From contig NZ_CP147243.1 in assembly GCF_037198285.1 (NCBI RefSeq), positions 1,852,422 to 1,916,421 of the forward strand: a stretch of DNA of 64,000 nt. The letters run 5' to 3'. Shown in pieces: positions 40,003 through 54,166 of this stretch. A program made the translations under genes and the position numbers. Numbering within the stretch: position 1 is the first letter of the stretch; the number at the start of each line of letters is the position of its first letter. The notes beneath the pieces are model-generated. The model ran no database searches. It saw nothing but the letters and a program-made list of their open reading frames with translations, and was not told the DNA's origin. The stretch comes from Haladaptatus sp. DJG-WS-42. GTDB taxonomy: Archaea > Halobacteriota > Halobacteria > Halobacteriales > Halococcaceae.

Positions 40003-40926
40003 TTACTGGTACTGCGCACAGACGAGACCCAGCCCCTTTTCGAAGGTGATGGCTGGTTCCCAGCCGGTTTCTGCCTTCATCTTCGAGCTGTCTGCCATCG
40101 TGTCGTGGACGTACACGTCCTCGGAGATGGGATTCTCGATGTACTCGGGTTCGACGCTCGTCCCAAGCGTCTGATTTAGTTTCTCGACGAGGGTGTTGGT
40201 GGTGTAGCTCTCGCCCGTGCCGAGGTTGTAGATGCCGTCAAGTTCGTGGTCTGCGGCGAGTTCGAGGCCGCGGACAATGTCAGAGACGTGGGTGAAGTCC
40301 CGAGTTTGGGTGCCGTCACCGTAAATGACCGGGGCCTCACCATTCGCAATATCGTCTGCGAACTGGGCGATTAGGTTGGCATACTCGCCTTTGTGCTCTT
40401 CTGCCCCGCCGTAACCCTGATACACCGAGAAAAACCGCATGCTTGCGAGCGTCATCCCATAGTGGTGGGAGAAGTACTCACCGTAGCGTTCACGGGCAAG
40501 TTTCGACGCTTCGTACCCAGTGCGAGCGGACACACTCATCGACTCGGGGGAGGGTTCGGTTCGGTTGCCGTAAATCGAGGACGTCGAAGCGTACACCACC
40601 GTGTCACACCCGTCGAGACGCGCTTGGTTTACTACGTTGACGAATCCTTCAACGTTCACGCGTGCACCCGCTACCGGATCCCCCTCGTGCATCGTGTACG
40701 ACGACAAGGCGGCGAGGTGGAACACGGCGTCCACGTCGGTCGGTAAATCGTCGTCGAGAGCACTGGCTTCGACGAATTCAACCGACGAATCGAGGTTCTC
40801 CGGGGTGCCCAGATAACAGTCATCGACCGCGACGACTTCATTGTCAGTTGCAAGATAGTTTGCGAGGTTCGAGCCGATGAACCCGGCCCCGCCCGTCACG
40901 AGCACGCGCTTGTTTTCCATACTCAT
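40003..40926 (-). CDS. NAD-dependent nucleotide-sugar epimerase/dehydratase
   Basis: This 307-residue extended SDR protein has NAD motif TGGAGFIGSNL, AALSSYTMHEGD, the YxxxK catalytic pair in GYEASKLARERYGEYF and GDGTQTRDFTHVSDIVRGL. It resembles UDP-glucose 4-epimerase and related enzymes. It may supply an activated sugar for the surface glycan genes downstream. A TATA-like TTATATA lies about 23 bases before the ATG at 40926, supporting that start over longer ones. It converges with ncsA, whose stop is adjacent. Confidence 0.9.
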   Translation of the reverse strand: MSMENKRVLVTGGAGFIGSNLANYLATDNEVVAVDDCYLGTPENLDSSVEFVEASALDDDLPTDVDAVFHLAALSSYTMHEGDPVAGARVNVEGFVNVVNQARLDGCDTVVYASTSSIYGNRTEPSPESMSVSARTGYEASKLARERYGEYFSHHYGMTLASMRFFSVYQGYGGAEEHKGEYANLIAQFADDIANGEAPVIYGDGTQTRDFTHVSDIVRGLELAADHELDGIYNLGTGESYTTNTLVEKLNQTLGTSVEPEYIENPISEDVYVHDTMADSSKMKAETGWEPAITFEKGLGLVCAQYQ

Positions 40927-41119
40927 ACTCTCGAAAATTATAGGTATATAATTGTATGGGTGTCGGAAAGTCATACCACCGTCACGCGCTCGTCTGACAA
41001 ATCTAGCAAATATGTTATTTCACCCAGTATTATGAAAGACTTTGAACTGTTCTCGAAATTTATTATAACAAATCAATTATTTCCGATAACTACTTTGGGT
41101 AATATGAATATCAGATACT

Positions 41120-41893
41120 ATGACTAAAATGAAGGAGTTGTTACGCCTTCTTCTTCGGCGAGACGATGTGGTCGCGGCAATACGGGCTGGGCCAGTCGAT
41201 ATACGGACGCTGACGGATACTGTTTCAGTTTCCCGTCCGACCGTCCATCGCTGTTTGAAACAACTGATTGAGCACGAAGTCGTCACAGAGACTCCACGTG
41301 GATATGTGCTTACGAGTTACGGGAGCCTTTTTTTCGACCAGTACCAGTCGTACATCGCAGAAACGGACGCTCTCCACGAAAACCGGGATCTGATTCCCTC
41401 CCTCGACGACCCATCTCACCTCTCTGGACGCGTGTTTCAGGACGCGACGTTTACGAGGGCCGTGTCGTTCGCGCCGGAAAAGCCAATCGCCGAAATCGAA
41501 TCTATTGTCAAGGACGCGACCAAAATTCGAGGCTTCTCCCCCGTCGTCGTCGGCCGGTACGTCTCGCTCTTTCACGAGAAGGTGACCGAAGACCTGCTGG
41601 ATGCAGAACTCATCATTTCACCGAACGTGTTCGACTACCTTGCCGAAACGTGGCCAGAGCAACTCAATGAGGCGCTTTCGATGGGCCTCACCGTGTTTGT
41701 GACCGACGAAACGCTCCCGTACGGGCTCATCCTCATCGACGAGCCGACCCCCCAACTCTGTCTCGTCGTCTACGACGATGGCTCGCTCCGCGGCGTCGTC
41801 CAAAACAACCAAGTCGACGCCATTGAGTGGGGCAATGAGCTGTACGACGCCTACCGCGAACGGGCACGCGAACCATCGGTCTCCGCTGAATAA
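41120..41893 (+). CDS. HTH transcriptional regulator with DUF1724 domain
   Basis: This 257-residue protein has an N-terminal ArsR-like winged helix (VDIRTLTDTVSVSRPTVHRCLKQLIEHEVV, about 25-55) and a C-terminal DUF1724 region typical of archaeal FilR1-like regulators (SFAPEKPIAEIESIVKDA, LTVFVTDETLPYGLILIDEP). AT-rich DNA precedes it, and it lies between a nucleotide-sugar epimerase and the large surface operon, so control of either or both is the obvious hypothesis. Its ligand is unknown. Confidence 0.87.
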   Translation: MTKMKELLRLLLRRDDVVAAIRAGPVDIRTLTDTVSVSRPTVHRCLKQLIEHEVVTETPRGYVLTSYGSLFFDQYQSYIAETDALHENRDLIPSLDDPSHLSGRVFQDATFTRAVSFAPEKPIAEIESIVKDATKIRGFSPVVVGRYVSLFHEKVTEDLLDAELIISPNVFDYLAETWPEQLNEALSMGLTVFVTDETLPYGLILIDEPTPQLCLVVYDDGSLRGVVQNNQVDAIEWGNELYDAYRERAREPSVSAE

Positions 41894-41906
41894 CTCCTGC
41901 GCCTCG

Positions 41907-41923
41907 TGTTCAGTTTGTGAACA
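41907..41923. repeat. Inverted repeat TGTTCA-GTTTG-TGAACA after the regulator gene
   Basis: Six-base arms flank a five-base centre 13 bases after the regulator stop. It may be a terminator stem or a dimer-binding operator upstream of the surface operon. A TATA-like ATTTAAAAT follows at about 41975-41983. Confidence 0.35.
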
Positions 41924-42000
41924 GGCGTTCTTTACGTGAACATCGGCACATTTCTTGCAACACTCCTCAGTTAATTTAAAATTTTTCTCTAGATAATAAT

Positions 42001-42042
42001 ATGGATGTCTACACTTATGCTATCACAACTTACATGCTATGA
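42001..42042 (+). CDS. Possible 13-residue leader ORF of the surface operon
   Basis: The ATG sits about 22 bases after a TATA-like ATTTAAAAT and encodes MDVYTYAITTYML, ending in a TGA that overlaps the next short ORF start (ATGA). It is in the right place for a leaderless transcript, but the length is too small to judge coding. Confidence 0.2.
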   Translation: MDVYTYAITTYML

Positions 42043-42191
42043 AATTAAACTCAGCCACGCCCAGCAGTACGATTTTTCCGGTCACACCGTCCGCAGAAAT
42101 CCAGCGTACAGGCACGTTTCATCAGTGGGTAGCCGCCAATCCCACTCGCCTTCGGAGACGGCGCAGTGAGGAGGCCGTATGTCACGCATAG
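42039..42191 (+). CDS. Possible 50-residue leader ORF overlapping the operon's first gene
   Basis: The frame starts by ATGA overlap with the preceding 13-codon frame and ends 13 bases inside the first large gene of the surface operon. The peptide begins MKLNSATPSSTIFPVTPSAE and turns Arg-rich towards its end. If translated it would couple ribosomes into the operon; no homologue is recognised. Confidence 0.25.
   Translation: MKLNSATPSSTIFPVTPSAEIQRTGTFHQWVAANPTRLRRRRSEEAVCHA
42170..42174 (+). promoter_or_regulatory. Strong Shine-Dalgarno GGAGG
   Basis: GGAGG lies four bases before the ATG at 42179. A consensus ribosome site is unusual here, where most genes look leaderless, and indicates a leadered transcript starting far upstream (about 42000). 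Confidence 0.6.
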
Positions 42192-42949
42192 CCCTCCTCT
42201 CTCGGGTAGTGTCTGCGAACAGACGTGAAGTGCTGGCGCTTGTCATCACCGCAGGCTTGCTCGTCTCGCTCGTGGTAGCGGCCACACCAGCGGGAGCCCT
42301 CAACACCGTTCTTCACGGCCCGAATGAGGTTGACACCAACGAACGTCTCACCGTCAAGGCTGACGTCGATATCCGCCCGAGCGACGAGTTCTCGCCAAAC
42401 GAGTTCACCTATACGATTTGGCCGACAGAGAGTCCAGAAAAAACGGTCACGGTGACGTTCGCTCCAAACGGTACCGTCCTCGACATCTCCCCAGAGCGCG
42501 GAACGGTTGACAACCGCATCCACGTCAGACGAGTTGCGAACACACTCGAAATCACACCCATCAAGCGCCCCGAACCGGGCTTCGGGTACGGCTACGGCTA
42601 TGGGTACGGCTATGGCTACGATACGGAGCTTGCGTATGAATACGAGATTTCGATGGACGCAAACGCCTTCAAGCAAGGATCCTACGAGAGTCAACTCGTC
42701 GTTTCCGCCGACGGCGGGAAAACCGACGAGTCGAACGTATTCGACTTCGACGTGACGATTCCAAGCGAGGACGAGGACGCCGATGGTGCGGGAGACGGAG
42801 AGAAAAACAAGGGTAAAGATAAAGACAAGGGTCGAGACAGCGACCACCGGTCTCCGGGTGACGTTGGCTCGTGGGTCGCCGTAATTGGGAACTTCTTCCG
42901 GGCATTGATTGCGAGCTTCCTCGGTTCGTTCGGAGTGGTTATCCCGTAG
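42179..42949 (+). CDS. Secreted surface protein with Gly-Tyr repeat
   Basis: This 256-residue protein has an N-terminal signal-like hydrophobic segment (about 18-38, ending PAGALN). A beta-rich domain follows (about 42-130), then a run of alternating Gly and Tyr (about 137-148). A second strand-rich part leads to a highly charged DADGAGDGEKNKGKDKDKG linker and a C-terminal hydrophobic segment (about 232-255). The hydrophobic tail could be a membrane anchor. It opens the operon, three bases ahead of a flippase gene, so it may be a surface acceptor or assembly factor. No family is recognised. Confidence 0.75.
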   Translation: MSRIALLSRVVSANRREVLALVITAGLLVSLVVAATPAGALNTVLHGPNEVDTNERLTVKADVDIRPSDEFSPNEFTYTIWPTESPEKTVTVTFAPNGTVLDISPERGTVDNRIHVRRVANTLEITPIKRPEPGFGYGYGYGYGYGYDTELAYEYEISMDANAFKQGSYESQLVVSADGGKTDESNVFDFDVTIPSEDEDADGAGDGEKNKGKDKDKGRDSDHRSPGDVGSWVAVIGNFFRALIASFLGSFGVVIP

Positions 42950-42952
42950 CTC

Positions 42953-44233
42953 ATGGGCCCAGACAACAGTTTCACGGCTCGACAGTTCGCAACCGAGCCG
43001 GTCGCCACCCTCAGACAGTACGTCCTTAGCGATGACTTACTCCACCACGGCAGCGTGATGGCCGTCGCAACCGCTGCGAGTGGGGCGCTCAATTACGCCT
43101 ATCAGGTGTTTATGGGCCGGGCACTCGGCCCCGAACAGTACGGCGTGTTCGGCGCGCTGTTCGCGCTGTTCTATCTCGTGAACGTCCTCGGACGAGGCAT
43201 CCGCTTCAGCGCGACGCGCTTTAGCGCCGAACTCTCAACAGACCGGGCGGCGCTCGGTGCGTTCCACCGTGGGTTTCTCCGCAAATCGCTGATGTTCAGT
43301 TGCGTCGTCTTCGTGGTGCTCGCCCTGAGCACACCGCTACTCGGTGACTTCCTCGGCGTCTCGACGCCGCTGTTGCTCATCGCCATCGCGGGAACCGCGC
43401 CGTTTGGCCTCGCGCTCACGGCGAACTTCGGAACCTTCCAGGGACTCCAGTGGTTTCCGACGCTCGGCGGCTACAAGGTACTGCTCGCCGGGGTGAAACT
43501 CGCCTTCGGCGTCGGCCTCGTCACCCTCGGCTACGGCGTGTCCGGCGCGTTCGGTGCGCTCGTCATCTCCTCTGTTCTCCTGTTCGGGCTCTCTACGGCG
43601 CACGTTTTCAGAACCCTCGGCAACGAGAGAACGTCATTCGAGTTCGAGTACACTCGGGCCTACAAATACACCCTTCCGGCCGTGCTCGCCGGATTCTGCC
43701 TGACCGTGCCGACCACGGTCGACGTCATCCTCGTCAAGCACTTCTTCCCGAGCCATACCGCCGGATTGTACGCCGCCGCCTCGGTGCTCGGGAAAATCCT
43801 CATCTTCCTCCCGATGGGCATCAGCACGGCGCTGTTCCCCAAAGTGTCGGGCCAGCAGACGAGCGGCGAGCGCCGGGCCCTCCTCACGCGCGCGTTGTTT
43901 TACACGGCCGTCATCGCGGGGGCCGGAGCCGCGCTGTTTGCGCTGTTTCCCCACTTCGTACTGACCGCGTTCTACGGGATGCCCTACGCCGATGCAGCCG
44001 CTGTACTCCCGTGGTACGGGGTTGCAGTCTTTGCATTCTCGCTGTCGAGTGTGACGCTTAACTTCCAACTCGCGCTCGACCAGAACCGGTTTGTCTACCT
44101 GTTTACGGCTGGCTCGCTCGTGGAAATCGCCCTGATGTGGGTGTTTCACGGCTCGTTGCTCCAGTTCGTCCAGATTCTCTTTGTCGTGAATGTGGGCCTG
44201 TTCGCACTCGGCCTGTTTGAGGTGTACTCATGA
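42953..44233 (+). CDS. MOP-superfamily polysaccharide flippase-like protein
   Basis: This 426-residue protein has about twelve membrane segments and the Wzx/oligosaccharide-flippase start (ALNYAYQVFMGRALGPEQYGVFGALFALFYLVNVLGRGI in parts). A related motif is FPSHTAGLYAAASVLGKILIFLPMGIS. Such proteins flip lipid-linked oligosaccharides across the membrane. The stop overlaps the glycosyltransferase start (ATGA), tying glycan assembly and export together. Confidence 0.87.
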   Translation: MGPDNSFTARQFATEPVATLRQYVLSDDLLHHGSVMAVATAASGALNYAYQVFMGRALGPEQYGVFGALFALFYLVNVLGRGIRFSATRFSAELSTDRAALGAFHRGFLRKSLMFSCVVFVVLALSTPLLGDFLGVSTPLLLIAIAGTAPFGLALTANFGTFQGLQWFPTLGGYKVLLAGVKLAFGVGLVTLGYGVSGAFGALVISSVLLFGLSTAHVFRTLGNERTSFEFEYTRAYKYTLPAVLAGFCLTVPTTVDVILVKHFFPSHTAGLYAAASVLGKILIFLPMGISTALFPKVSGQQTSGERRALLTRALFYTAVIAGAGAALFALFPHFVLTAFYGMPYADAAAVLPWYGVAVFAFSLSSVTLNFQLALDQNRFVYLFTAGSLVEIALMWVFHGSLLQFVQILFVVNVGLFALGLFEVYS

Positions 44234-46146
44234 GTAAAACCGATTCCACTTCCAGAACCCCAGCATCGTCCGCAAACCAAACCCGCTCGGTCGTCGTTCC
44301 CGTCTACGGCGAACACCCGGAGACGGTGTCTGCGCTCGTCTCTGACCTGTACGACGCCGGATGGGACGAGGTCGTCGTCTGTGCAGACGACCCGACACCT
44401 AACCTCGAAGCACGACTCTCGACGCTCGCAGAGGACGGCAGAACCGCCGTCTCGCTGAGCGACGCTCGCCGTGGAAAAGGGGGCGCACTCAGCGACGGAC
44501 TCGACGTCGCTACGGGCGACGTCCTCGGATACGTTGATGCAGACCGCGCGATTCCCGTCGCTGAACTCGACCGGCTCTACTCGGTGGTCGAATCACACAC
44601 TGCCGCGGTGACGGTCGGTTCACGCGACCTCGAAGGGAGCTGTCGTCTCTCACAGACACCCGCCCGCCAGTGGCTCGCAAAGGGCTACCGCTCGCTCGCA
44701 CGCCACATGACGCGGGTGCAAATAGAAGACCTCCAGTGTGGCGCGAAAGCGTTCCGCGCGGAGGTCTGGGAGCAGGTTTCGCCGCGGATGAACGAGGAGG
44801 GCTTCGCTTTCGACACCGAATTCGTCGCCCGCGTCCACCGTCACGGCTACGAGGTGAGTGAGGTCGCAATCGAGTGGGACGACCCCGGCGACAGTAGCGT
44901 CTCACCCACCCGCGACGCCCCCGATATGCTCCGGTCGTTGTTCCGGATTCGCCGCTCACTTCGCGGGCCGATTCCCACCGCCGACCGCGACGACAAACTG
45001 TCGGTCGCGCTCATCACGTCGCATCCGCCGAATCGCGGCCACCTCGCTGAGTACGGTGAGGAACTTGCGAGAGCGTACGGCCAGCGCGACGACCTCGACG
45101 TGACGGTACTCGCCCGGCGAATGGACACCGCACCTCCCGTCGAGTTCCGCCGGGGCTACGAAGTACGTCGGGTTTGGGATCGCGACTCGTTCGACGGCGC
45201 GAGTGCGTTGCTCGAAGAACTCGTCGCGGGCGACTACGACGTGGTGCACTTCAACATCCACATGACCTACTTCGGCAACGAGAACGTCCACCGGTTCATC
45301 GGTCTCGTGTTGCCGCCGTTGCTCAGCCGCGTCTACGGCATGAACGTCATCACGACGATGCACGACCTACTCGAAGTCGTCGAAGAGGAGATGATAGACG
45401 AGAACATCGGCCTCGTAGAACAGGTCGGTGCGCGGGCAGCGACCCAACTGCTCTTGCTCGGGGACGCATCGACCGTCACCTCGAAAGAGTACCTCGACAT
45501 CCTCACCGACCGCTACTACTCGAAAGACGTTTTCCACGTCCCTCACGGCACGTTCGCGTGCGCGGACGGTGGTGTCCAACAGATACCCGACCCGTTCCGT
45601 ATCATGGTGTTTGGCCACCTCAGTCCGACGAAAGACATCGAGACGGTGGTCGAGGCGTTCGAGGACGTTCGTGCGGCTATCCCGGACGCAGAACTCTACA
45701 TCGCGGGTGACTCACATCCCGGTTTCCCCACCCACCGCCAAGACCTCGAAAACGCGTACGGCGACCGGCCGGGCGTCCACTTCCATGGCTATGTCGAGGA
45801 CGACGAGATGGACGCCGTCTGGCAGCAGTCGTCGGTCGTCATCATGCCGTATCGGACGTGTACGGGCGTGAGTGGCGTGTTCCAACTCGCCAAAACCTAC
45901 GGTACGCCGGTCGTGAGCTACGACGTTGGCGGGATGCGCACCTCGACCGTCGAAACCGGTGGAGCCGCAGAGTTCGTCCCGCCAGGTGACGCCTCAGCGT
46001 TGGCTGGGAAACTCCGTTCGCTGTGGACCAATCCTGACCGTCTCCACGAGATGGCCCAACAGAACGCGGAGGCCGCAAACGCCTACACCATCGGTGATAC
46101 CGCAGACCGGATGGTCGAAATCATCGAGGAGCGTGTGCTGCCATGA
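44230..46146 (+). CDS. Bifunctional GT2-GT4 glycosyltransferase fusion
   Basis: This 638-residue protein joins two glycosyltransferases. Residues about 18-245 are a GT-A (GT2, dolichol-phosphate sugar synthase-like) domain with RSVVVPVYGEHP, RRGKGGALSDGLDVATGD and DADRAIP. Residues about 258-638 are a GT-B (GT4) domain with SHPPNRGHLAEYGEELARAY, HVPHGTFAC, IMVFGHLSPTKDIETVVEAF, an acceptor loop GVSGVFQLAKTYGTPVVSYDVGG and EFVPPGDASALA. No membrane segment links the halves. One polypeptide could load a lipid carrier and add a following sugar. The order of reactions is inferred. Confidence 0.88.
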   Translation: MSKTDSTSRTPASSANQTRSVVVPVYGEHPETVSALVSDLYDAGWDEVVVCADDPTPNLEARLSTLAEDGRTAVSLSDARRGKGGALSDGLDVATGDVLGYVDADRAIPVAELDRLYSVVESHTAAVTVGSRDLEGSCRLSQTPARQWLAKGYRSLARHMTRVQIEDLQCGAKAFRAEVWEQVSPRMNEEGFAFDTEFVARVHRHGYEVSEVAIEWDDPGDSSVSPTRDAPDMLRSLFRIRRSLRGPIPTADRDDKLSVALITSHPPNRGHLAEYGEELARAYGQRDDLDVTVLARRMDTAPPVEFRRGYEVRRVWDRDSFDGASALLEELVAGDYDVVHFNIHMTYFGNENVHRFIGLVLPPLLSRVYGMNVITTMHDLLEVVEEEMIDENIGLVEQVGARAATQLLLLGDASTVTSKEYLDILTDRYYSKDVFHVPHGTFACADGGVQQIPDPFRIMVFGHLSPTKDIETVVEAFEDVRAAIPDAELYIAGDSHPGFPTHRQDLENAYGDRPGVHFHGYVEDDEMDAVWQQSSVVIMPYRTCTGVSGVFQLAKTYGTPVVSYDVGGMRTSTVETGGAAEFVPPGDASALAGKLRSLWTNPDRLHEMAQQNAEAANAYTIGDTADRMVEIIEERVLP

Positions 46147-46361
46147 CAGAACTCACCGTTGACCAGACCACGGCGGACGACCAGCAGATGACAACTGAGT
46201 CCATCGAACAGACTTCCGTCCTCACGGAACTCGACACGGAACCGTGTCCCCACCCCGCGTGCGACGGCTCCCTTGACCACTCGACGTACAAGGGGTACGA
46301 CGCCGTCGTCTGTGACGACTGCGCCACCCCGGCGGTGTGTATCTTCGGAGATGGAGAATGA
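46143..46361 (+). CDS. Small zinc-ribbon-like protein in the surface operon
   Basis: This 72-residue protein has a disordered Thr/Glu/Asp N-terminal half and a C-terminal metal-site pattern CPHPACDG ... CDDCATPAVC. It overlaps both neighbours by ATGA, so it is translated with them and is a genuine gene by position. Haloarchaea encode many small zinc-finger proteins of unknown role; here it might scaffold or regulate the enzymes of the operon. Confidence 0.75.
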   Translation: MTELTVDQTTADDQQMTTESIEQTSVLTELDTEPCPHPACDGSLDHSTYKGYDAVVCDDCATPAVCIFGDGE

Positions 46362-47770
46362 CGGGCGAGGACGCACCCCTCATTTCGAGTGGCGTGGATG
46401 CGGCAAAACGACGGCTCATGGAGTCGATGCCCGATGCTCTCAAACGGCGACTCGTCGGCCCGTACAACCGCATGCTGAAAGCGAAGGGAAATCGGGCGTA
46501 CAGAACACGACAGCAGGCGCTTCCCACACGGTCGCCCAGCGACGACGCCCCAGACCACATTGTCTGCGTCGTGGTAGATGCACTCCGAGCTGACGCCGTG
46601 ACCGCAGAGGATAGCGCGTTTCTCGCAGAGCGGTTGTGGGGTGACCTCGTCACGCCCGCTCCGTGGACGTTTCCCGCGGTCACCTCGCTCGTAACTGGCG
46701 AGTATCCCCACGAACACGGGTCGGTTCGCCAGTCCGACGAGTCGGACACCGGCGCAACCGACCTCGTCATCCCGCCGAAACTCCCCGCCGACCGCGAGAC
46801 GCTCCCCGACGTGTTCGGGAGTGCAGGCTACGAAACCTACGGTGGCTTCGCGTTTCACATGCCGTTTTTCGCCATCGGCGGGCGATTCGCCACCCACTCG
46901 CTCTACGACGACGCGCCCGCCGACACGCTCGTAGACGATTATCTCGACTGGGCTGACGCTCAAACTGGGAAGACATTTTCGTACCTCCACCTCGCAGACC
47001 TTCACGAACCGGTCGACCCACCCGCACCTTACTGGGGGCGCTACGAAGTCGATGCGTCGATTCCAGACATCAAGACGTGGGACTACACCGAGGCGGCCGA
47101 TGTTGGCCCCGACGGTCGGCGCTACAGAGCAAATCGGAAACAGCTCTACCGCGCCGCCCTCGCCTTCGTCGATGACGAACTCGGCCGACTCTCCTACAAC
47201 CTGAACGAGCGTCTCGATGGCGACGTTGCGCTCGTCGTCACCGGCGACCACGGCGAGGCGTTCTGGGAACACACCGAATTCGACGCGGCTCACTTCGCCG
47301 ACTCGCGGCCCGCCTACTGCGTCGACCACGGCGGCACGCCCTACGAGTCGCTGACGCGCGTCCCCCTCGCGGTCGATGGACTTGATCTCGCGCCTGCCGA
47401 CGGCGGGACGCCGTCGCTCATCGACCTCGCGCCCTCGTTGCTCGACAGTGTGGGGTTGGGCGACGCCCTCGAACCGACCGGTACATCGCTCGTTTCTGGC
47501 GTCCCGACAGACCGCGTCACGCTCGTCGAAAGCGCGCGATACGGTCACGAAAAGAAGGCGGCCTACTTCGACGGCTGGAAACTCGTCGTCTCGAAAGGCG
47601 ACGACCAGTCGGTCGGCTTCGACCTGCCAGCAGCGGAGCCAACGACGCTCCCCGAAGCCGTCGAGCGTCGGCTTACCGAGGCACTCCCTGCGTGGCCAAA
47701 CGGCGAACACGCCGACGTTCGCGTCTCAGGAATGGCCCAACAGCGTTTGGAGGACCTCGGGTATGTCTGA
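46358..47770 (+). CDS. Soluble sulfatase-like alkaline phosphatase superfamily enzyme
   Basis: This 470-residue protein has no signal peptide or membrane segment. Metal-site motifs of the superfamily are visible: HIVCVVVDALRADAVT, nucleophile region APWTFPAVTSLVTGEYPHEHG, LHLADLHEPVD, VVTGDHGEAFWEH and a final His-rich VDHGGTPYESLTRVPL. The nucleophile is probably a Thr. These enzymes hydrolyse or transfer phosphate or sulfate groups. The C-terminus ends QRLEDLGYV, echoed by the second such enzyme two genes later. A cytosolic location suggests work on nucleotide-linked or lipid-linked glycan precursors. Confidence 0.87.
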   Translation: MTGEDAPLISSGVDAAKRRLMESMPDALKRRLVGPYNRMLKAKGNRAYRTRQQALPTRSPSDDAPDHIVCVVVDALRADAVTAEDSAFLAERLWGDLVTPAPWTFPAVTSLVTGEYPHEHGSVRQSDESDTGATDLVIPPKLPADRETLPDVFGSAGYETYGGFAFHMPFFAIGGRFATHSLYDDAPADTLVDDYLDWADAQTGKTFSYLHLADLHEPVDPPAPYWGRYEVDASIPDIKTWDYTEAADVGPDGRRYRANRKQLYRAALAFVDDELGRLSYNLNERLDGDVALVVTGDHGEAFWEHTEFDAAHFADSRPAYCVDHGGTPYESLTRVPLAVDGLDLAPADGGTPSLIDLAPSLLDSVGLGDALEPTGTSLVSGVPTDRVTLVESARYGHEKKAAYFDGWKLVVSKGDDQSVGFDLPAAEPTTLPEAVERRLTEALPAWPNGEHADVRVSGMAQQRLEDLGYV

Positions 47771-47954
47771 CCGCGAAATCCGAGATACTCCAATTGCGTT
47801 CCAACCCAGCCTCTCCTCCCGTGATTCGTCCGCGCAGACAGCAACCGCTGTCCTCGCTCCTCCACTGCAGTTGATTCCAATGACTCTCATCGACACTACC
47901 ACCGACTTAGCATCGCAAGAAAGCGCAGTCACCACCGTCGGGGTAACGCCATGA
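47763..47954 (+). CDS. Small coupled protein of unknown function
   Basis: The frame encodes 63 residues, beginning MSDREIRDTPIAFQPSLSSR and rich in Ser, Thr and Ala. It overlaps the preceding enzyme gene by eight bases and the next start by ATGA. It exactly bridges two genes that would otherwise be 180 bases apart in an operon where all others touch, which argues that it is translated. No family or motif is recognised. A shorter product from an internal ATG is possible. Confidence 0.5.
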   Translation: MSDREIRDTPIAFQPSLSSRDSSAQTATAVLAPPLQLIPMTLIDTTTDLASQESAVTTVGVTP

Positions 47955-49447
47955 AGGTCTGCGTCATCGGGCTTGACGGAGCCACGTGGGACCTCCTCGA
48001 CCCGTGGCTTGACGACCTGCCGACCATCAAATCGTTCGCAGACGAGCGACGGACGGAACTCGACAGCTGTATCCCACCGCTGTCGATGCCCGCGTGGAAG
48101 GTGTACTCCACGGGGATGAATCCGGGCGACCTCGGCGTGTTCACCTTCGTCGAACCCGACTTCGAAGACCAGCAGTTCAAGACGGTCACGAACGAGTCGT
48201 TCACGACGCGCGAAATTTGGGATTACCTCGGTGAACACGGCCACCAGAGCGCCGTCATCAACATGCCAACGACGTACCCACCGCGGGACGTAGACGGCTG
48301 GATGATAAGCGGCCCATTCTCGGGGAAACAGGAAGAGTACACCCAGCCAGCCACTCTCGAACGCACGCTGAATCGCAACGAGTACACGATTCTTCCCGAG
48401 TACTATCTCTCGCGCGACCCCGACGACATCGACGGGGCGGTCGCGTCGGTCGAGAAAAAGCTTCAGACGGCACTTGGCTTCACCGAAAAAACTGACTTCA
48501 TCCACACGACGCTGTACCTGACCGACACGGTCCAGCACACGGAGTGGGACTCGCCCGTCGCAAAGGCGTTCTGGGAGGAAGTGGACGCGAAACTTGCGTG
48601 GTTCCTCGACCAACTCGACGAGGAGTGGAACGTGGTACTCATGTCGGACCACGGGTTTGGCTACACCAAGGGGCGTTTTTACCTCAACACGTGGCTCGAA
48701 GAACAGGGCTACATCCACATCGACGACTCGGGCTTCGACCTCGGCGACCTCTTTGGCGTGGTCGGACTCGATTACGACCGCGCGCTCGCGCTCATGCAAA
48801 AGCTTCGCCTCTCCGGGTTCGTTCTTGACGTACTCCCCGAGAGCTTCCTGCGGAAAGTCGCCCGGCAGATGCCCGGCAACCGCAAGCTGGAGGGGTTACA
48901 GGATAAAATCGACTGGGAGGCAGACGCCGTTGCCCTCGCGCCACTCATCTACACGCGCAACAAGCAGATTGCAGACGAAATCCGGAGTAAGTTGCTCGAA
49001 GTCACCGACAGAGACGGCGAGCGCGTCATCGAGGAAGTGTATTACGGTGAAAACATCTACCCCGATGCGGACGTGCGCGTGCCCGACCTCGTCATCAAAC
49101 ACACCGACTACGGCATCAGCGACATCGTGAAACCGGGCGTGCTGTTCGAGTACGACGGCAACTGGCGACATCACAAGACGGCCCACCACCGCCGTAATGG
49201 TATCCTCACCGCACGCGGGCCGGACGTCGAAGACGTGTCGTTCGACTCGCCGCGGCTCTACGACATCGCCCCGACGATTCTCGACGGCTTCGGCATCGAC
49301 ATCCCCACAGGGATGCGCGGTGAGAGTCTCGGCTTGCTCGGGAATAACGCCCAACGGCGGGACGTTCCGGTCGATCGTAACGTCGAGCGGGTGGTCGAAC
49401 ACGATGCCCACGTAGAGCAGAAACTCAAAGACCTCGGATATCTGTAG
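47951..49447 (+). CDS. Type I phosphodiesterase/nucleotide pyrophosphatase-like enzyme
   Basis: This 498-residue soluble alkaline-phosphatase-superfamily protein starts MKVCVIGLDGATWDLLDPW and carries a Ser nucleophile region PPLSMPAWKVYSTGMNPGD, VVLMSDHGFGYTKGRFYLN, then HHKTAHHRRNGILTARG and RLYDIAPTILDGFGI near the C-terminus. This resembles archaeal proteins annotated as AP-superfamily phosphodiesterases, often beside glycosyltransferases. It could cleave or transfer phosphodiesters in precursor metabolism. The last residues (QKLKDLGYL) resemble the end of the other superfamily member here. Confidence 0.87.
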   Translation: MKVCVIGLDGATWDLLDPWLDDLPTIKSFADERRTELDSCIPPLSMPAWKVYSTGMNPGDLGVFTFVEPDFEDQQFKTVTNESFTTREIWDYLGEHGHQSAVINMPTTYPPRDVDGWMISGPFSGKQEEYTQPATLERTLNRNEYTILPEYYLSRDPDDIDGAVASVEKKLQTALGFTEKTDFIHTTLYLTDTVQHTEWDSPVAKAFWEEVDAKLAWFLDQLDEEWNVVLMSDHGFGYTKGRFYLNTWLEEQGYIHIDDSGFDLGDLFGVVGLDYDRALALMQKLRLSGFVLDVLPESFLRKVARQMPGNRKLEGLQDKIDWEADAVALAPLIYTRNKQIADEIRSKLLEVTDRDGERVIEEVYYGENIYPDADVRVPDLVIKHTDYGISDIVKPGVLFEYDGNWRHHKTAHHRRNGILTARGPDVEDVSFDSPRLYDIAPTILDGFGIDIPTGMRGESLGLLGNNAQRRDVPVDRNVERVVEHDAHVEQKLKDLGYL

Positions 49448-52237
49448 ATGACGCCCGACAGCCCGATTTCACTCCCGCGCAGCCTCGATGACAGCCGACT
49501 ACAACACGCCCTGTGTTTCCTCGGTTTCCTCGTCATCTACGGACTGCTCCTCCGTGGCATCACCATCGGGAACCTGTACACGTTCGGGGATTTCGCGCCG
49601 TTCTACGGCACGGACGGACTCACTAAGTTCACCACTGTCTGGGTCAATCAGGGGCTTGGTTACTCGTACATCTACCACGTCCTGCCCGCGTATCTCGGGG
49701 CGATAACCGCCGTCGGTGGCGTCCTCGCACAGAACCTGCTGTTTCTCGCGTTCATTCCGGTGGGTTACCTCACGTTCCTCGTCTTCGGGAAACGGTTCGT
49801 CGAGTCGATTCCCGCCCTGCACCTCGCCGCGTTCGTTTACGCAATCAACCCACTCACCATCGGTGAGTTCGTAAACGGCGGGGTCGCCGCGCTCATCGGT
49901 TTCGCGTTCCTTCCGCTGTTGTTGTACTACCTGTACGCCATCGTGGACACCGACTCGTGGGATGCGACGCTCAAAGCGGGCGCGGTGTTCGGCGCGACGA
50001 CGGTCAGCCCGTGGCTCGGTTTCTGGATGGTTGCACCGTTCGCGACGTATCTGGTTTACCGCGCACGGTGGTCGCCGCGCACTCTTCTCAAACTCTGCAT
50101 GTCCGGCGCACTCGGCGTGATTCTCTCGCTCCCGAGCGTCCACCACATGCTCCAGCGCGCGCTCGGCTTCGACTCCGGCCAAAGCGTCCTCGAAAGCACG
50201 TTCATGTGGAACTACACCGAGGCGAGCGTCCTCGCCGTTGTCCGCCTCGCGGGGAATCACGGCGTGATGGCGATGAACCAACTCGGCTACAACGACGACC
50301 CCGCGATGTTGATTGGGTTGGTCATCCCCGGTATCGCGCTGCTCGCCATCCGCCAGCGCCGACTGACGGTGTATTACGCCATCGCGTCGCTCATCGTCTC
50401 GTTCATGGTGCTCACGAAGTACGGCGTCACGACGCCGCTGTTCGAGGTGTTCCCACCGATGTGGTCGCTCAGAAATCCTGTGAAACTCCAGTACCCGCTC
50501 ACCATCTGCATGAGCCTCCTGTTCGGCGCTGGCTTGGACACGGTGCTCGTCGGCCCACGCGCGGAACCACATCCGCTCGCAACCCCCTCAAAATCGACGC
50601 GACCTGTGCTCACCGACGGCGGGACGCCTTCGCGGGCGAACGCCGTCGTCCTCGGCATCGTCTTACTTTCGCTGGTCGCCTACGCCGCACCCGCTGCGGG
50701 CGCGCTCGGCCTCCAAGACGTTCGCGGCGACGATTACTACGTCCCCGACGAACAGGCCGAACTCGCAGACAGACTCGACGGAACCGTGATGTGGGTGCCC
50801 TACGGCTACACCTCACAACTTCGCCTGCGCCACACGTACCCCGCCCACGTCGGCCTCAAAAGCGGCGGCATCGCACAGGGGATTCAGAACGCCGGATACG
50901 TCACAACGCTATTCGAGAAGTTCGCCCGTGACCCCGAAGCCGTCCGTCCACAGCTCGCCAAACAGGGCGTGAAGTACGTCGTCGTCGAGTCCGACCCGCC
51001 GGGCGACATCGACAACGGCCAGCCGCGCGTCGTCGAACGCTGGGGTGCGCCGTGGCTCTGGGGGAGCAGTGAGAACTACGATGACCGACTCGCAGAAAGC
51101 GACGGCTACGAGGAGGCCTTCGAGACGGGCGACTACACCGTGTACCGCGTCGAAGGCGCGCGCGATGTGTCGCGCTTCGAGGAGTACGACGGCCTCCACC
51201 GCCTCTACTACCCGAATTCGCGTGGAACCGTCGAAACGTACGGCGAAAACCGCATCACAAACGGCGGGTTCGACGACGACCTCGACGGCTGGTGGGTGTG
51301 GTCTGGGGAGAACGGCACGCAGTCGCGCGTCATCGAAACTGACGAGGGCGACCACGCAGTCGAGATGGTGACCGAGTCGGGCGATGCCTACCCGCTCGCC
51401 CAATCGACCACGGTGGAAGCCGACCAGCCCTACGAACTCGCCGTCTCCGGAGCCGGGAACGCGACGGTTTTCCTCTACTGGTACAACGGCAGTAAGTCAC
51501 AGGACAACCTCGTCGCCCGCGAGAGCCACCTGCTCAATGAATCCGCGACGACCGTGCTCGCACAGGGTGACACCCTCTCGGTACGCATTCGTCCCGACTC
51601 GTCGCGCGTGCGTATCGACTCCGTCTCGCTCGAACGCGCGAGCTACCCGCGACAAACCGGGTTTACGACGAACGGCGGGGACATCCCCGGCGTCGTCGTT
51701 GATGGCTACGACGACAATCAAACGCTCGGCACAGCCGTCGCCGTCAACCTGAACAAGTCAGAAGCCGACGCTGTCGGTGCCGATGTGGTCATTCGAGACG
51801 CAGAGACGATTCTCGACGAGCAACTCGTTTACAACGAATCGTATCGTCAAGGCGCGGGCGTCCTTCTCTCAGAAGACGATGTAGAAACCGTGGTTCCAGA
51901 CGGCGCAACGGCGGTCACGTACGACCATCCCGACGGCGTCGTCCTCGACTACTGGATGTTTGGCACGTTCGACACCCGCTCGGTCACCGTGCTGGCCACC
52001 TCCTACGACGAACGGTGGGTTGGCCCTGCGGACGCAGACCACTTCCGCGCCTATGGCTGGGCAAACGGCTACCTGAACGCAGAGCCCGACGAAATTCGCT
52101 GGACGGGTGGGGAACTCAGAACGTGGGTCGTCCGCATTTGGGCCGGTGCGTGGATCGTCGTGGTGTCCCTGCTCGTCTCGAACGCGCTTAGAAAGCGGTG
52201 GCTCGCGCGTGAAAACGGTGACCGACTGGGTCTATGA
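49448..52237 (+). CDS. Large multi-spanning membrane protein with extracellular domain (GT-C-like)
   Basis: This 929-residue protein has roughly ten to twelve membrane segments in the first 430 residues. A large soluble, strand-rich region follows (about 430-890, with NGGFDDDLDGWWVWSGENG in a carbohydrate-binding-like stretch), then one C-terminal membrane segment (about 893-912). An early acidic loop FGDFAPFYGTDG lies in the first outside loop, where GT-C transferases keep catalytic acids. It probably transfers a sugar or glycan from a lipid carrier outside the cell, or polymerises it. The family is not firmly identified. Confidence 0.75.
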   Translation: MTPDSPISLPRSLDDSRLQHALCFLGFLVIYGLLLRGITIGNLYTFGDFAPFYGTDGLTKFTTVWVNQGLGYSYIYHVLPAYLGAITAVGGVLAQNLLFLAFIPVGYLTFLVFGKRFVESIPALHLAAFVYAINPLTIGEFVNGGVAALIGFAFLPLLLYYLYAIVDTDSWDATLKAGAVFGATTVSPWLGFWMVAPFATYLVYRARWSPRTLLKLCMSGALGVILSLPSVHHMLQRALGFDSGQSVLESTFMWNYTEASVLAVVRLAGNHGVMAMNQLGYNDDPAMLIGLVIPGIALLAIRQRRLTVYYAIASLIVSFMVLTKYGVTTPLFEVFPPMWSLRNPVKLQYPLTICMSLLFGAGLDTVLVGPRAEPHPLATPSKSTRPVLTDGGTPSRANAVVLGIVLLSLVAYAAPAAGALGLQDVRGDDYYVPDEQAELADRLDGTVMWVPYGYTSQLRLRHTYPAHVGLKSGGIAQGIQNAGYVTTLFEKFARDPEAVRPQLAKQGVKYVVVESDPPGDIDNGQPRVVERWGAPWLWGSSENYDDRLAESDGYEEAFETGDYTVYRVEGARDVSRFEEYDGLHRLYYPNSRGTVETYGENRITNGGFDDDLDGWWVWSGENGTQSRVIETDEGDHAVEMVTESGDAYPLAQSTTVEADQPYELAVSGAGNATVFLYWYNGSKSQDNLVARESHLLNESATTVLAQGDTLSVRIRPDSSRVRIDSVSLERASYPRQTGFTTNGGDIPGVVVDGYDDNQTLGTAVAVNLNKSEADAVGADVVIRDAETILDEQLVYNESYRQGAGVLLSEDDVETVVPDGATAVTYDHPDGVVLDYWMFGTFDTRSVTVLATSYDERWVGPADADHFRAYGWANGYLNAEPDEIRWTGGELRTWVVRIWAGAWIVVVSLLVSNALRKRWLARENGDRLGL

Positions 52238-54087
52238 GCGAGACGAATACCCGGGCTCTCCGTGTCCGACTGGCGTCCGTCGTGTCCCACGACATCCTCG
52301 CGGTGGGCTATTTTCTCCTGTTGAGCCTGCTCGTATTCTACCCGCTGTTGGATTCCGGTTACATACTCACGCTCGATATGATTTTCGCGCCCACGGCTGA
52401 CTACTTGCAGTTCGGTCTGACGACCAAGGGGCCGCTGTACTACGGCCGACTGCCGTTTCTCGCGGTGCTCGATGCCGCGGCGCTGGTCGCACCCGACTGG
52501 CTCATCCAGAAGGTAATACTCGTCTGTCTCCCGGTGTGGTGTGGGTGGAGCATGGTTCGCGCGTGTCGGGGACAGCCCCGCGTGGCCGCGCTGTTCGCGG
52601 GGACGCTCTACGCCTTCAATCCGTACGTGTACGTCAGACTGCTCGCCGGGCACTGGTACTTCTTGCTCGGCTACGCGTTCGTCCCACTCGCCATCGTCTC
52701 GTTCGCCCAGTATCTCGACGAGGGGCAGCCACGGTCGCTCGTCGGTGCGGTTTGGTGGACAACGCTCGTGAGCGTGTTCGACCCACACGCAACCGTACTG
52801 GTTGCTGTGGCTGGCGGCTGTCTGTTCGTCACGCACGCCGCGAGTGAGTGGCGGCGTCATGCAGAAATACTCGCTTCCATCCGACGATTTGCAACGTTTT
52901 CTGCGGGTGCATTCCTCGTAAACGCCTACTGGCTCCTCCCGGCGCTCGCCGCGGGAGTGACTGGTGGGACTCGTCTCACGGCTATCTCGGGGGCCGACCT
53001 CACCGTCTTCAGTGCCGGGGGAACGATTGCCGGAAACGTTCCCCTCTCCGTGTCGATGCTTTATGGCTTCTGGCGCGGCGGCTACCTGACGGCGTTCGAA
53101 CTGCTGCCGTCGTGGCTCGTGTTCGGCCTGTTCTGTGGGTTGCTGTACCTCGCGGTTCGCGGTGCTGTCACGGCCAGCGACGAACCACTCGTGGCCGGGG
53201 TCGCCCTCTGTGGCGTCGGTGCCTTCGTGCTGAGCCTCGGCGTGAGCACGTCGTTTTCAGACCCACTGTTTCGGACGCTCGCTGACGTGCTTCCGTTGTT
53301 TCGCGGCATGCGTGATTCCCAAAAATTTGTGGGGCTGCTCTGTTTCGCCTACGCATTCCTCGGCGGGCGGGGTGTCTCACAACTCGTTTCGGAGGGTGGC
53401 GGGCGAAGCCACGACGAAACCGATGTCTCACACCGGCGCTGGACGCTCCCGTCTCGTCGCAGCGTTCTTCGAGTGGTGTGCATCTGTTTGGTGCTCGCCA
53501 CACCGCTCGCGTACGCCGCGCCGATGTTCGGCGGCTTTTCGGGGCAAGTCGAGACCACGACGTACCCTGAATCGTGGCACACCACCAACGACTATCTCGT
53601 CGGCGCGTCCGACGGTTCGCGGACGCTCTTTCTCCCGTGGCACCAGTACATGGACTTTTCGTGGACTGACCGTCGCATCGCAAATCCTGCACCGTTGTTC
53701 TTCGAAACACCGGTGATTGCTTCCGAGAATCTCGAAGTCGGCGACGTTCGATCGCGGGCGACCGACCCAACCCATGAGGAAGTCGCGGCAATCCTCGAAC
53801 ATCCTGACGACGACCTTGGCGAGCGGCTTGCGGCGGTTGGGGTCGAGTACGTTATCCTCGCCCACGAGGTGGACTACCGACGGTACGACGTGCTCACAGA
53901 CCACGAGGATTTCTCCGTTGCGGTCGCTTCACCGGGGCTTACGCTGTACAAAAATAACGCATACGCTCCCGGGGAGGCACCTCGAGCTGGCCCGCTGATT
54001 CCACTGTGGCCGCTCCTGGTCGGAAGCGTCGTGTCCGTCGTCACAGCGGCGCTGCTCGTGGTGAAACGACGCGAGAATTCCCTCTAA
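52234..54087 (+). CDS. Second large multi-spanning membrane protein (GT-C-like)
   Basis: This 617-residue protein has about twelve membrane segments in the first 420 residues, an outside region (about 425-590) and a final membrane segment. The first outside loop carries ILTLDMIFAPTADY, comparable to the acidic loop of the preceding protein, and NAYWLLPALAAG resembles a motif seen in archaeal membrane proteins of this kind. It overlaps the preceding gene by ATGA. The two probably act as a pair or alternative transferases. It ends the operon. Confidence 0.75.
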   Translation: MSETNTRALRVRLASVVSHDILAVGYFLLLSLLVFYPLLDSGYILTLDMIFAPTADYLQFGLTTKGPLYYGRLPFLAVLDAAALVAPDWLIQKVILVCLPVWCGWSMVRACRGQPRVAALFAGTLYAFNPYVYVRLLAGHWYFLLGYAFVPLAIVSFAQYLDEGQPRSLVGAVWWTTLVSVFDPHATVLVAVAGGCLFVTHAASEWRRHAEILASIRRFATFSAGAFLVNAYWLLPALAAGVTGGTRLTAISGADLTVFSAGGTIAGNVPLSVSMLYGFWRGGYLTAFELLPSWLVFGLFCGLLYLAVRGAVTASDEPLVAGVALCGVGAFVLSLGVSTSFSDPLFRTLADVLPLFRGMRDSQKFVGLLCFAYAFLGGRGVSQLVSEGGGRSHDETDVSHRRWTLPSRRSVLRVVCICLVLATPLAYAAPMFGGFSGQVETTTYPESWHTTNDYLVGASDGSRTLFLPWHQYMDFSWTDRRIANPAPLFFETPVIASENLEVGDVRSRATDPTHEEVAAILEHPDDDLGERLAAVGVEYVILAHEVDYRRYDVLTDHEDFSVAVASPGLTLYKNNAYAPGEAPRAGPLIPLWPLLVGSVVSVVTAALLVVKRRENSL

Positions 54088-54166
54088 CAGAGTCACGTTG
54101 CGGGTCGCTCTCGGATGTGGTAAAAAAGAAAATGAAAACCGGAGTTCTTGGAATGAGATTTGACGT

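Follow-up and report, generated by a model that had tools for sequence, protein, structure and literature searches.

The window analysed here, a 64,000-nucleotide stretch of a haloarchaeal genome (2.78 Mb, single contig), contains a mobile gene cassette that is best read as a self-contained, horizontally transferred, dolichol-phosphate-dependent transmembrane glycosylation system, a reading that we consider probable. An earlier note on this DNA had described nine genes between 42179 and 54087, each touching or overlapping the next. All main open reading frames (ORFs) were found again at the same coordinates, and eight of the genes, g1–g5 and g7–g9, are solid and point in one direction (Table 1).

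Table 1. Features of the cassette in the window
Feature	Coordinates	Strand	Evidence
NAD-dependent epimerase/dehydratase; left end of inserted unit	40003..40974	-	NCBIfam sugar-nucleotide epimerase matches, all below cut-off
Winged-helix regulator, FilR1 middle domain; divergent from epimerase	41120..41893	+	PF08350 113.8 bits, PF25213 54.9 bits
g1, secreted Ig-like protein with Gly-Tyr array	42179..42949	+	N-terminal hydrophobic segment 15-45
(Gly-Tyr)6 array of g1, residues 136-147	42584..42619	+	Mixed synonymous codons
g2, MOP/MATE-type flippase, ~11 TM segments	42953..44233	+	Homology to annotated flippases
g3, GT2-GT4 fusion without TM	44230..46146	+	PF00535, PF00534, PF13692
g4, small zinc-ribbon protein, HVO_A0556 type	46143..46361	+	NF041921 57 bits
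g5, AP-superfamily (PF00884/PF01663) soluble enzyme, Thr at nucleophile position	46358..47770	+	Family matches, ligands
63-codon ORF 'g6', probably spacer rather than gene	47763..47954	+	Codon-position test
g7, AP-superfamily type I phosphodiesterase-like soluble enzyme, Ser at nucleophile position	47951..49447	+	PF01663 134.8 bits
g8, 929-aa GT-C-like membrane protein; large outer part including CBM-like beta-sandwich	49448..52237	+	Homology to g9
g9, AftD/MmpA-like GT-C protein	52234..54087	+	PF11847, NF053599, Foldseek

The ninth candidate, a 63-codon ORF between g5 and g7, is rejected as a gene. When differences from the sister genome (G017) were counted per codon position, its 53 differences were spread evenly (17/22/14), compared with 23/20/140 in g5 and 6/4/102 in g7, and it matched no Pfam or NCBIfam family. 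The small zinc-ribbon protein g4 (11/9/21) is thus the one of the two small proteins in the earlier description that stands. Most junctions are as tight as described, with 4-nt overlaps at g2/g3, g3/g4, g4/g5 (taking the ATG at 46358 as the most likely start of g5) and g8/g9, and with g7 and g8 abutting at 49447/49448; the exceptions are a 3-nt gap between g1 and g2 (42949/42953) and the 180 nt that separate g5 from g7 once the 63-codon ORF is discounted.

The gene set is a real unit. A search with g8 found nine holders among 392 haloarchaeal genomes, our own included, with 51–93% identity in the others and no weaker matches, and full-length g3 at more than 50% identity marks exactly the same nine of 392; outside them, the g3 matches listed cover the GT2 half alone at 33–39% identity. 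Halorarius litoreus holds a tenth copy, and g9 is confined to cassette holders in a sample of 242 haloarchaeal genomes. The order g1-g2-g3-(g4)-g5-(g7)-g8-g9 is identical in all ten copies, which lie between mostly different flanks in genomes of at least three families. While g1 is always present, g4 was detected in six copies besides that of the window and went undetected in three, and g7 is absent from half of the ten. The earlier note had proposed looking for this gene order in other haloarchaea; its recurrence is far beyond chance, the genes co-occur in a fixed order, and no characterised locus with that order was found in the literature searched. No copy of g8 was found in the plasmid collection. 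One copy carries an insertion of its own, a 742-residue secreted NosD-type beta-helix protein between g5 and g7 (L017:7157-9382).

The insertion site is preserved in relatives. The genes ncsA and ftsZ are adjacent in one genome of the same genus (G016) and in two of the same family (G004 and G001), and in the window they are separated by exactly 40003-54166. This empty site puts the left edge of the block at 40003, so that the epimerase and the FilR1-type regulator belong to it; the operon given in the earlier note as 42179-54087 is real and conserved, but the true unit is larger. Both genes accompany the operon in L011–L013, the epimerase at 76–88% identity and the regulator at 53–89%; genomes with both genes beside the operon include two of another family (G311 and G095 of family f5). 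The epimerase is missing from the ncsA-ftsZ interval of relatives. The empty-site genomes are natural controls; in G016 the gap holds a methyltransferase-like reading frame in place of the cassette (L057:9118-9844).

The g8 phylogeny places the window copy with G311 and G095, and the remaining copies of family f5 with Halorarius. A topology that unites all f5 copies in one clade fails the AU test (p 1.4e-68), and the g8 identities agree with the tree (67–69% versus 51–53%). As far as sequence relationships tell, the tree shows a cassette that has passed between haloarchaeal families by horizontal transfer.

Synthesis would begin inside the cell with g3, whose fused GT2 and GT4 domains (Table 1) bear out the earlier assignment. 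The GT2 half (PF00535) has a DAD motif at residues 103–105, and among its best NCBIfam models are dolichyl-phosphate (DolP)-sugar synthases (AglJ and DPhHxTase), below cut-off in both cases (TIGR04182, 48.6 bits; NF041391, 33 bits). We suggest that the GT2 half charges dolichyl phosphate with a sugar and that the GT4 half extends the lipid-linked sugar; the epimerase would perhaps supply the sugar nucleotide, and regulation would probably lie with the FilR1-type protein. Cooperation of GT2 and GT4 in one pathway is supported by their being fused in haloarchaea and encoded elsewhere by two separate neighbouring genes beside a flippase and g9 (L108, L114 and L115). The resemblance of the GT2 half to AglJ might also indicate an accessory branch of AglB-dependent N-glycosylation. 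We regard such a branch as very improbable, given that the score is far under the AglJ model cut-off of 325 bits, that there is no aglB among the cassette genes, and that the GT-C proteins are closer to AftD than to oligosaccharyltransferases. The earlier note had placed the two soluble enzymes and the two small proteins outside the known AglB scheme, and for the gene content of the locus this holds.

The flippase g2 matches no Pfam or NCBIfam family itself. It shares 40% identity with a protein annotated as an oligosaccharide flippase (PF13440, 66 bits) and 36% with the flippase of L108, which supports the MOP-type assignment and gives the cassette the flippase expected of a transmembrane glycosylation system. 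Its predicted substrate is the lipid-linked sugar, which g2 would turn to the outside.

The outer steps would fall to g8 and g9, described earlier as two large GT-C-like membrane proteins and found here to be paralogues. The AftD GT-C domain PF11847 scores 33.5 bits in g9, above the gathering cut-off of 26. A structural model of g9 of moderate quality (pLDDT 59.3, pTM 0.58) has mycobacterial AftD (6w98) as its best Foldseek match (E 8.7e-8), followed by STT3, PglB, AftA, ArnT and ALG9. No Pfam or NCBIfam family matches g8, which is homologous to g9 by hhalign profile alignment (423 columns, probability 91%, E 9e-7). Searches of the PDB with g8 and g9, as sequences and as profiles, gave nothing significant. 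An aspartate in the first outer loop, D48, is invariant in g8 and in g9, and GT-CA enzymes have an essential aspartate at the same place (PMC12041299). The fold comparison with GT-C proteins called for earlier gave matches for g9; the g8 model was too poor (pLDDT 39.8), and its whole-model fold search was dropped. The beta-sandwich at residues 600–730 of g8 gives weak CBM16/CBM matches mixed with unrelated proteins and carries little weight. We propose that g9, together with g8 and its carbohydrate-binding-like domain, transfers or polymerises the sugar outside the cell, the predicted transferase activity following from the domain and fold matches of g9 and from the homology of g8 to it. With the g3 fusion and the flippase homology, these matches uphold the earlier view of a glycan that is made, flipped and then transferred externally. 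Three genomes of a single genus encode g9 as two ORFs, with the break near residue 385 where the membrane part meets the soluble part (L113:7373-9334, L114:10613-13455 and L115:4476-6399).

A different role for g9 has to be weighed. The MmpA equivalog model NF053599 covers nearly its whole length at 168.2 bits (158–175 bits in orthologues), and among the control genomes only Corynebacterium glutamicum has the family. MmpA takes part in the transport of trehalose lipids and is not known to be a transferase (PMC8698533). A non-catalytic g9 is therefore conceivable; with or without g8, it would help to carry a glycolipid made in the cytoplasm to the outer layer, as the corynebacterial protein does. 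We think this unlikely: the score is under the curated cut-off of 210 bits, the setting has no trehalose-mycolate context, PF11847 is above cut-off, the loop aspartate is invariant, and CBM-like parts occur in g8 and in a Halobellus relative.

The constant partner of these enzymes is g1, in which the N-terminal hydrophobic segment and (Gly-Tyr)6 array agree with its earlier description as a secreted Gly-Tyr repeat protein. Homologues of g9 were found in other classes of the phylum, where g1 homologues are likewise secreted, Ig-like, equipped with Gly-Tyr (GY) arrays and near g9; the g1 homologue of L075 has a PGF-CTERM sorting tail that passes the cut-off, and in L077 the tail scores below it. 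Among related genomes, g1 occurs in 16 of 19 with g9 and in none of six without it (Fisher p 5e-4, an optimistic value as the genomes are related), and in at least nine of the 16 it lies within ~20 kb of g9. The association has exceptions, since g1 is distant from g9 or missing in some g9-bearing genomes. Among haloarchaea, g1 was found in five of five cassette holders and in one of 189 other genomes, and that sole outside gene, only distantly g1-like, lies beside GT2, GT4 and a flippase. This g1-like protein (L067:5957-6694), which also neighbours an AglF homologue, has no GY run but AGYEVGAAGYEVG. The recurrence of the g1–g9 pair in other classes is new.

The homology of g1 does not reside in the array: nearly all homologues were recovered after the arrays had been masked in both the profile and the target sequences, and an array-only resemblance is rejected. 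Nor are the arrays a chance feature, as all 23 ORFs with (GY)3 or longer, among 3506 in the loci examined, are g1 homologues, in a locus set enriched for g1 by design. The arrays are encoded by mixed synonymous codons, so what is maintained seems to be the amino-acid sequence and not a product of DNA slippage. One g1 homologue has a run of 16 Gly-Tyr pairs (L134, G727:C97:34263-34820). It is plausible that g1 is the dedicated outer partner of g9, as acceptor or scaffold. A bolder idea, which we offer tentatively and consider rather doubtful, is that an AftD-like GT-C enzyme modifies a surface protein dedicated to it, attaching sugar within or beside the GY array, possibly to tyrosine; this would be an undescribed archaeal protein modification, conserved from haloarchaea to other classes and spread between families by the cassette. 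The literature searched, mostly without subscription papers, held nothing on point for archaeal GY arrays or for AftD-like archaeal enzymes.

The constancy of g1 also bears on whether the cassette assembles an exopolysaccharide or capsule, with g3 starting the repeat unit, g2 exporting it, g8 and g9 serving as polymerase or side-chain transferases, and g1 anchoring or organising the polymer on the S-layer. A flippase with glycosyltransferases is the usual composition of such systems, a DolP-glucuronic acid synthase serves an acidic exopolysaccharide in Haloarcula hispanica (PMC9943897), and copy L017 adds its secreted beta-helix protein. The cassette has, however, a single fused glycosyltransferase pair and, the GT-C proteins apart, nothing that is obviously Wzy-like, and its constant partner is the protein g1, not further glycosyltransferases. 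Polymer assembly is accordingly a serious possibility, on balance not a likely one. A point against the glycosylation reading is that neither a phosphoglycosyltransferase nor a ligase was found in the cassette.

The two soluble enzymes g5 and g7 had been called sulfatase-like and phosphodiesterase-like. Both belong to the AP superfamily, and both have the score (PF01663, 38.8 bits in g5 and 134.8 bits in g7), metal ligands and nucleophile of the type I phosphodiesterase/AP group. Residues D74, T104, D214, H216, D297, H298 and H324 are invariant in g5, and D9, S45, D192, H196, D233, H234 and H412 in g7. The phosphodiesterase-like assignment of g7 stands. The formylglycine-sulfatase motif C/S-x-P-x-R is absent from g5 and g7, and g5 is rejected as a sulfatase. 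Since neither has a hydrophobic segment, both look cytoplasmic, and in the glycosylation reading they would be phosphoesterase- or phosphotransferase-type enzymes acting on a precursor. A phospho- or sulfo-glycan, as the earlier note had suggested, would instead have them act on the polymer, attaching or removing phosphate or sulfate groups. Two such genes within the operon, with complete metal-ligand sets, are what that proposal has in its favour. It is improbable in view of the missing motif, the predicted cytoplasmic location, the loss of g7 from half of the copies and the lack of any sulfotransferase seen among the cassette genes. The two proteins share the same kind of tail (..LEDLGYV in g5, window 47735-47770; ..LKDLGYL in g7, 49415-49447), which is kept in orthologues.

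The zinc-ribbon protein g4 scores 57.0 bits against NF041921 (HVO_A0556 zinc finger), below the cut-off of 65. Deletion of HVO_A0556 in Haloferax leads to more biofilm and less swarming (PMC6562870), a phenotype that by analogy hints, at the most, at a function of g4 connected with the surface.

Nothing resembling the composition of the cassette was found in the literature searched. The nearest known systems are bacterial, namely the three-component transmembrane glycosylation systems such as the pentofuranose system with a MATE flippase and GT136 (PMC11127046; PMC8035078). Shared with multi-component systems are a GT2-type or other lipid-phosphate sugar synthase, a MOP/MATE or Wzx-type flippase, and a GT-C protein with a CBM-like domain. 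The cassette differs from them in being archaeal, in the fusion of GT2 to GT4, in its two paralogous GT-C proteins, and in the addition of two soluble AP-superfamily enzymes, a zinc-ribbon protein and a dedicated secreted GY-array protein. The likeness to the arabinofuranosyltransferase AftD lies in the GT-C domain of g9, by sequence and fold, and in the CBM-like domains added in g8 and in the relative from Halobellus. In length g9 is roughly half of AftD, identity in the fold alignment is only 15%, and arabinose is not implied. That relative, on a Halobellus ramosii plasmid (NZ_CP101826), combines a related flippase and a GT4 with a 1299-residue AftD-like gene containing a distant g9-like domain with a CBM; the locus is simpler, and no GT2 fusion, g1, g5 or g7 was found there. 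AepG, the DolP-glucuronosyltransferase of Haloarcula hispanica (PMC9943897), is likewise a haloarchaeal GT2 that loads DolP for a surface glycan, but it is a single GT2 with C-terminal TM segments within an aglB-containing cluster.

If the glycosylation reading is right, a glycosylation pathway of a bacterial kind exists in archaea too, complete and in portable form, and includes relatives of AftD and MmpA. In haloarchaea, surface glycans have an influence on how cells tolerate salt and on how viruses attach. The puzzling GY-array surface protein would be tied to a specific enzyme family, and the pair would provide a handle on the function of the array.

A related run outside haloarchaea, L108, consists of a flippase, GT2, GT4, a secreted protein that on inspection resembles kelch proteins, a g8-like gene, a g7-like phosphodiesterase (30% identical to g7) and g9. 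Adjoining g9 in other classes, and not in haloarchaea, is a small membrane protein with the motif G(N/D)E...AN.AI..Y..LV.GV; the two scanned matched no family, and the gene was observed at L074:9564-10130, L077:12295-12963, L078:3568-4197, L102:7317-7838 and L103:9589-10065.
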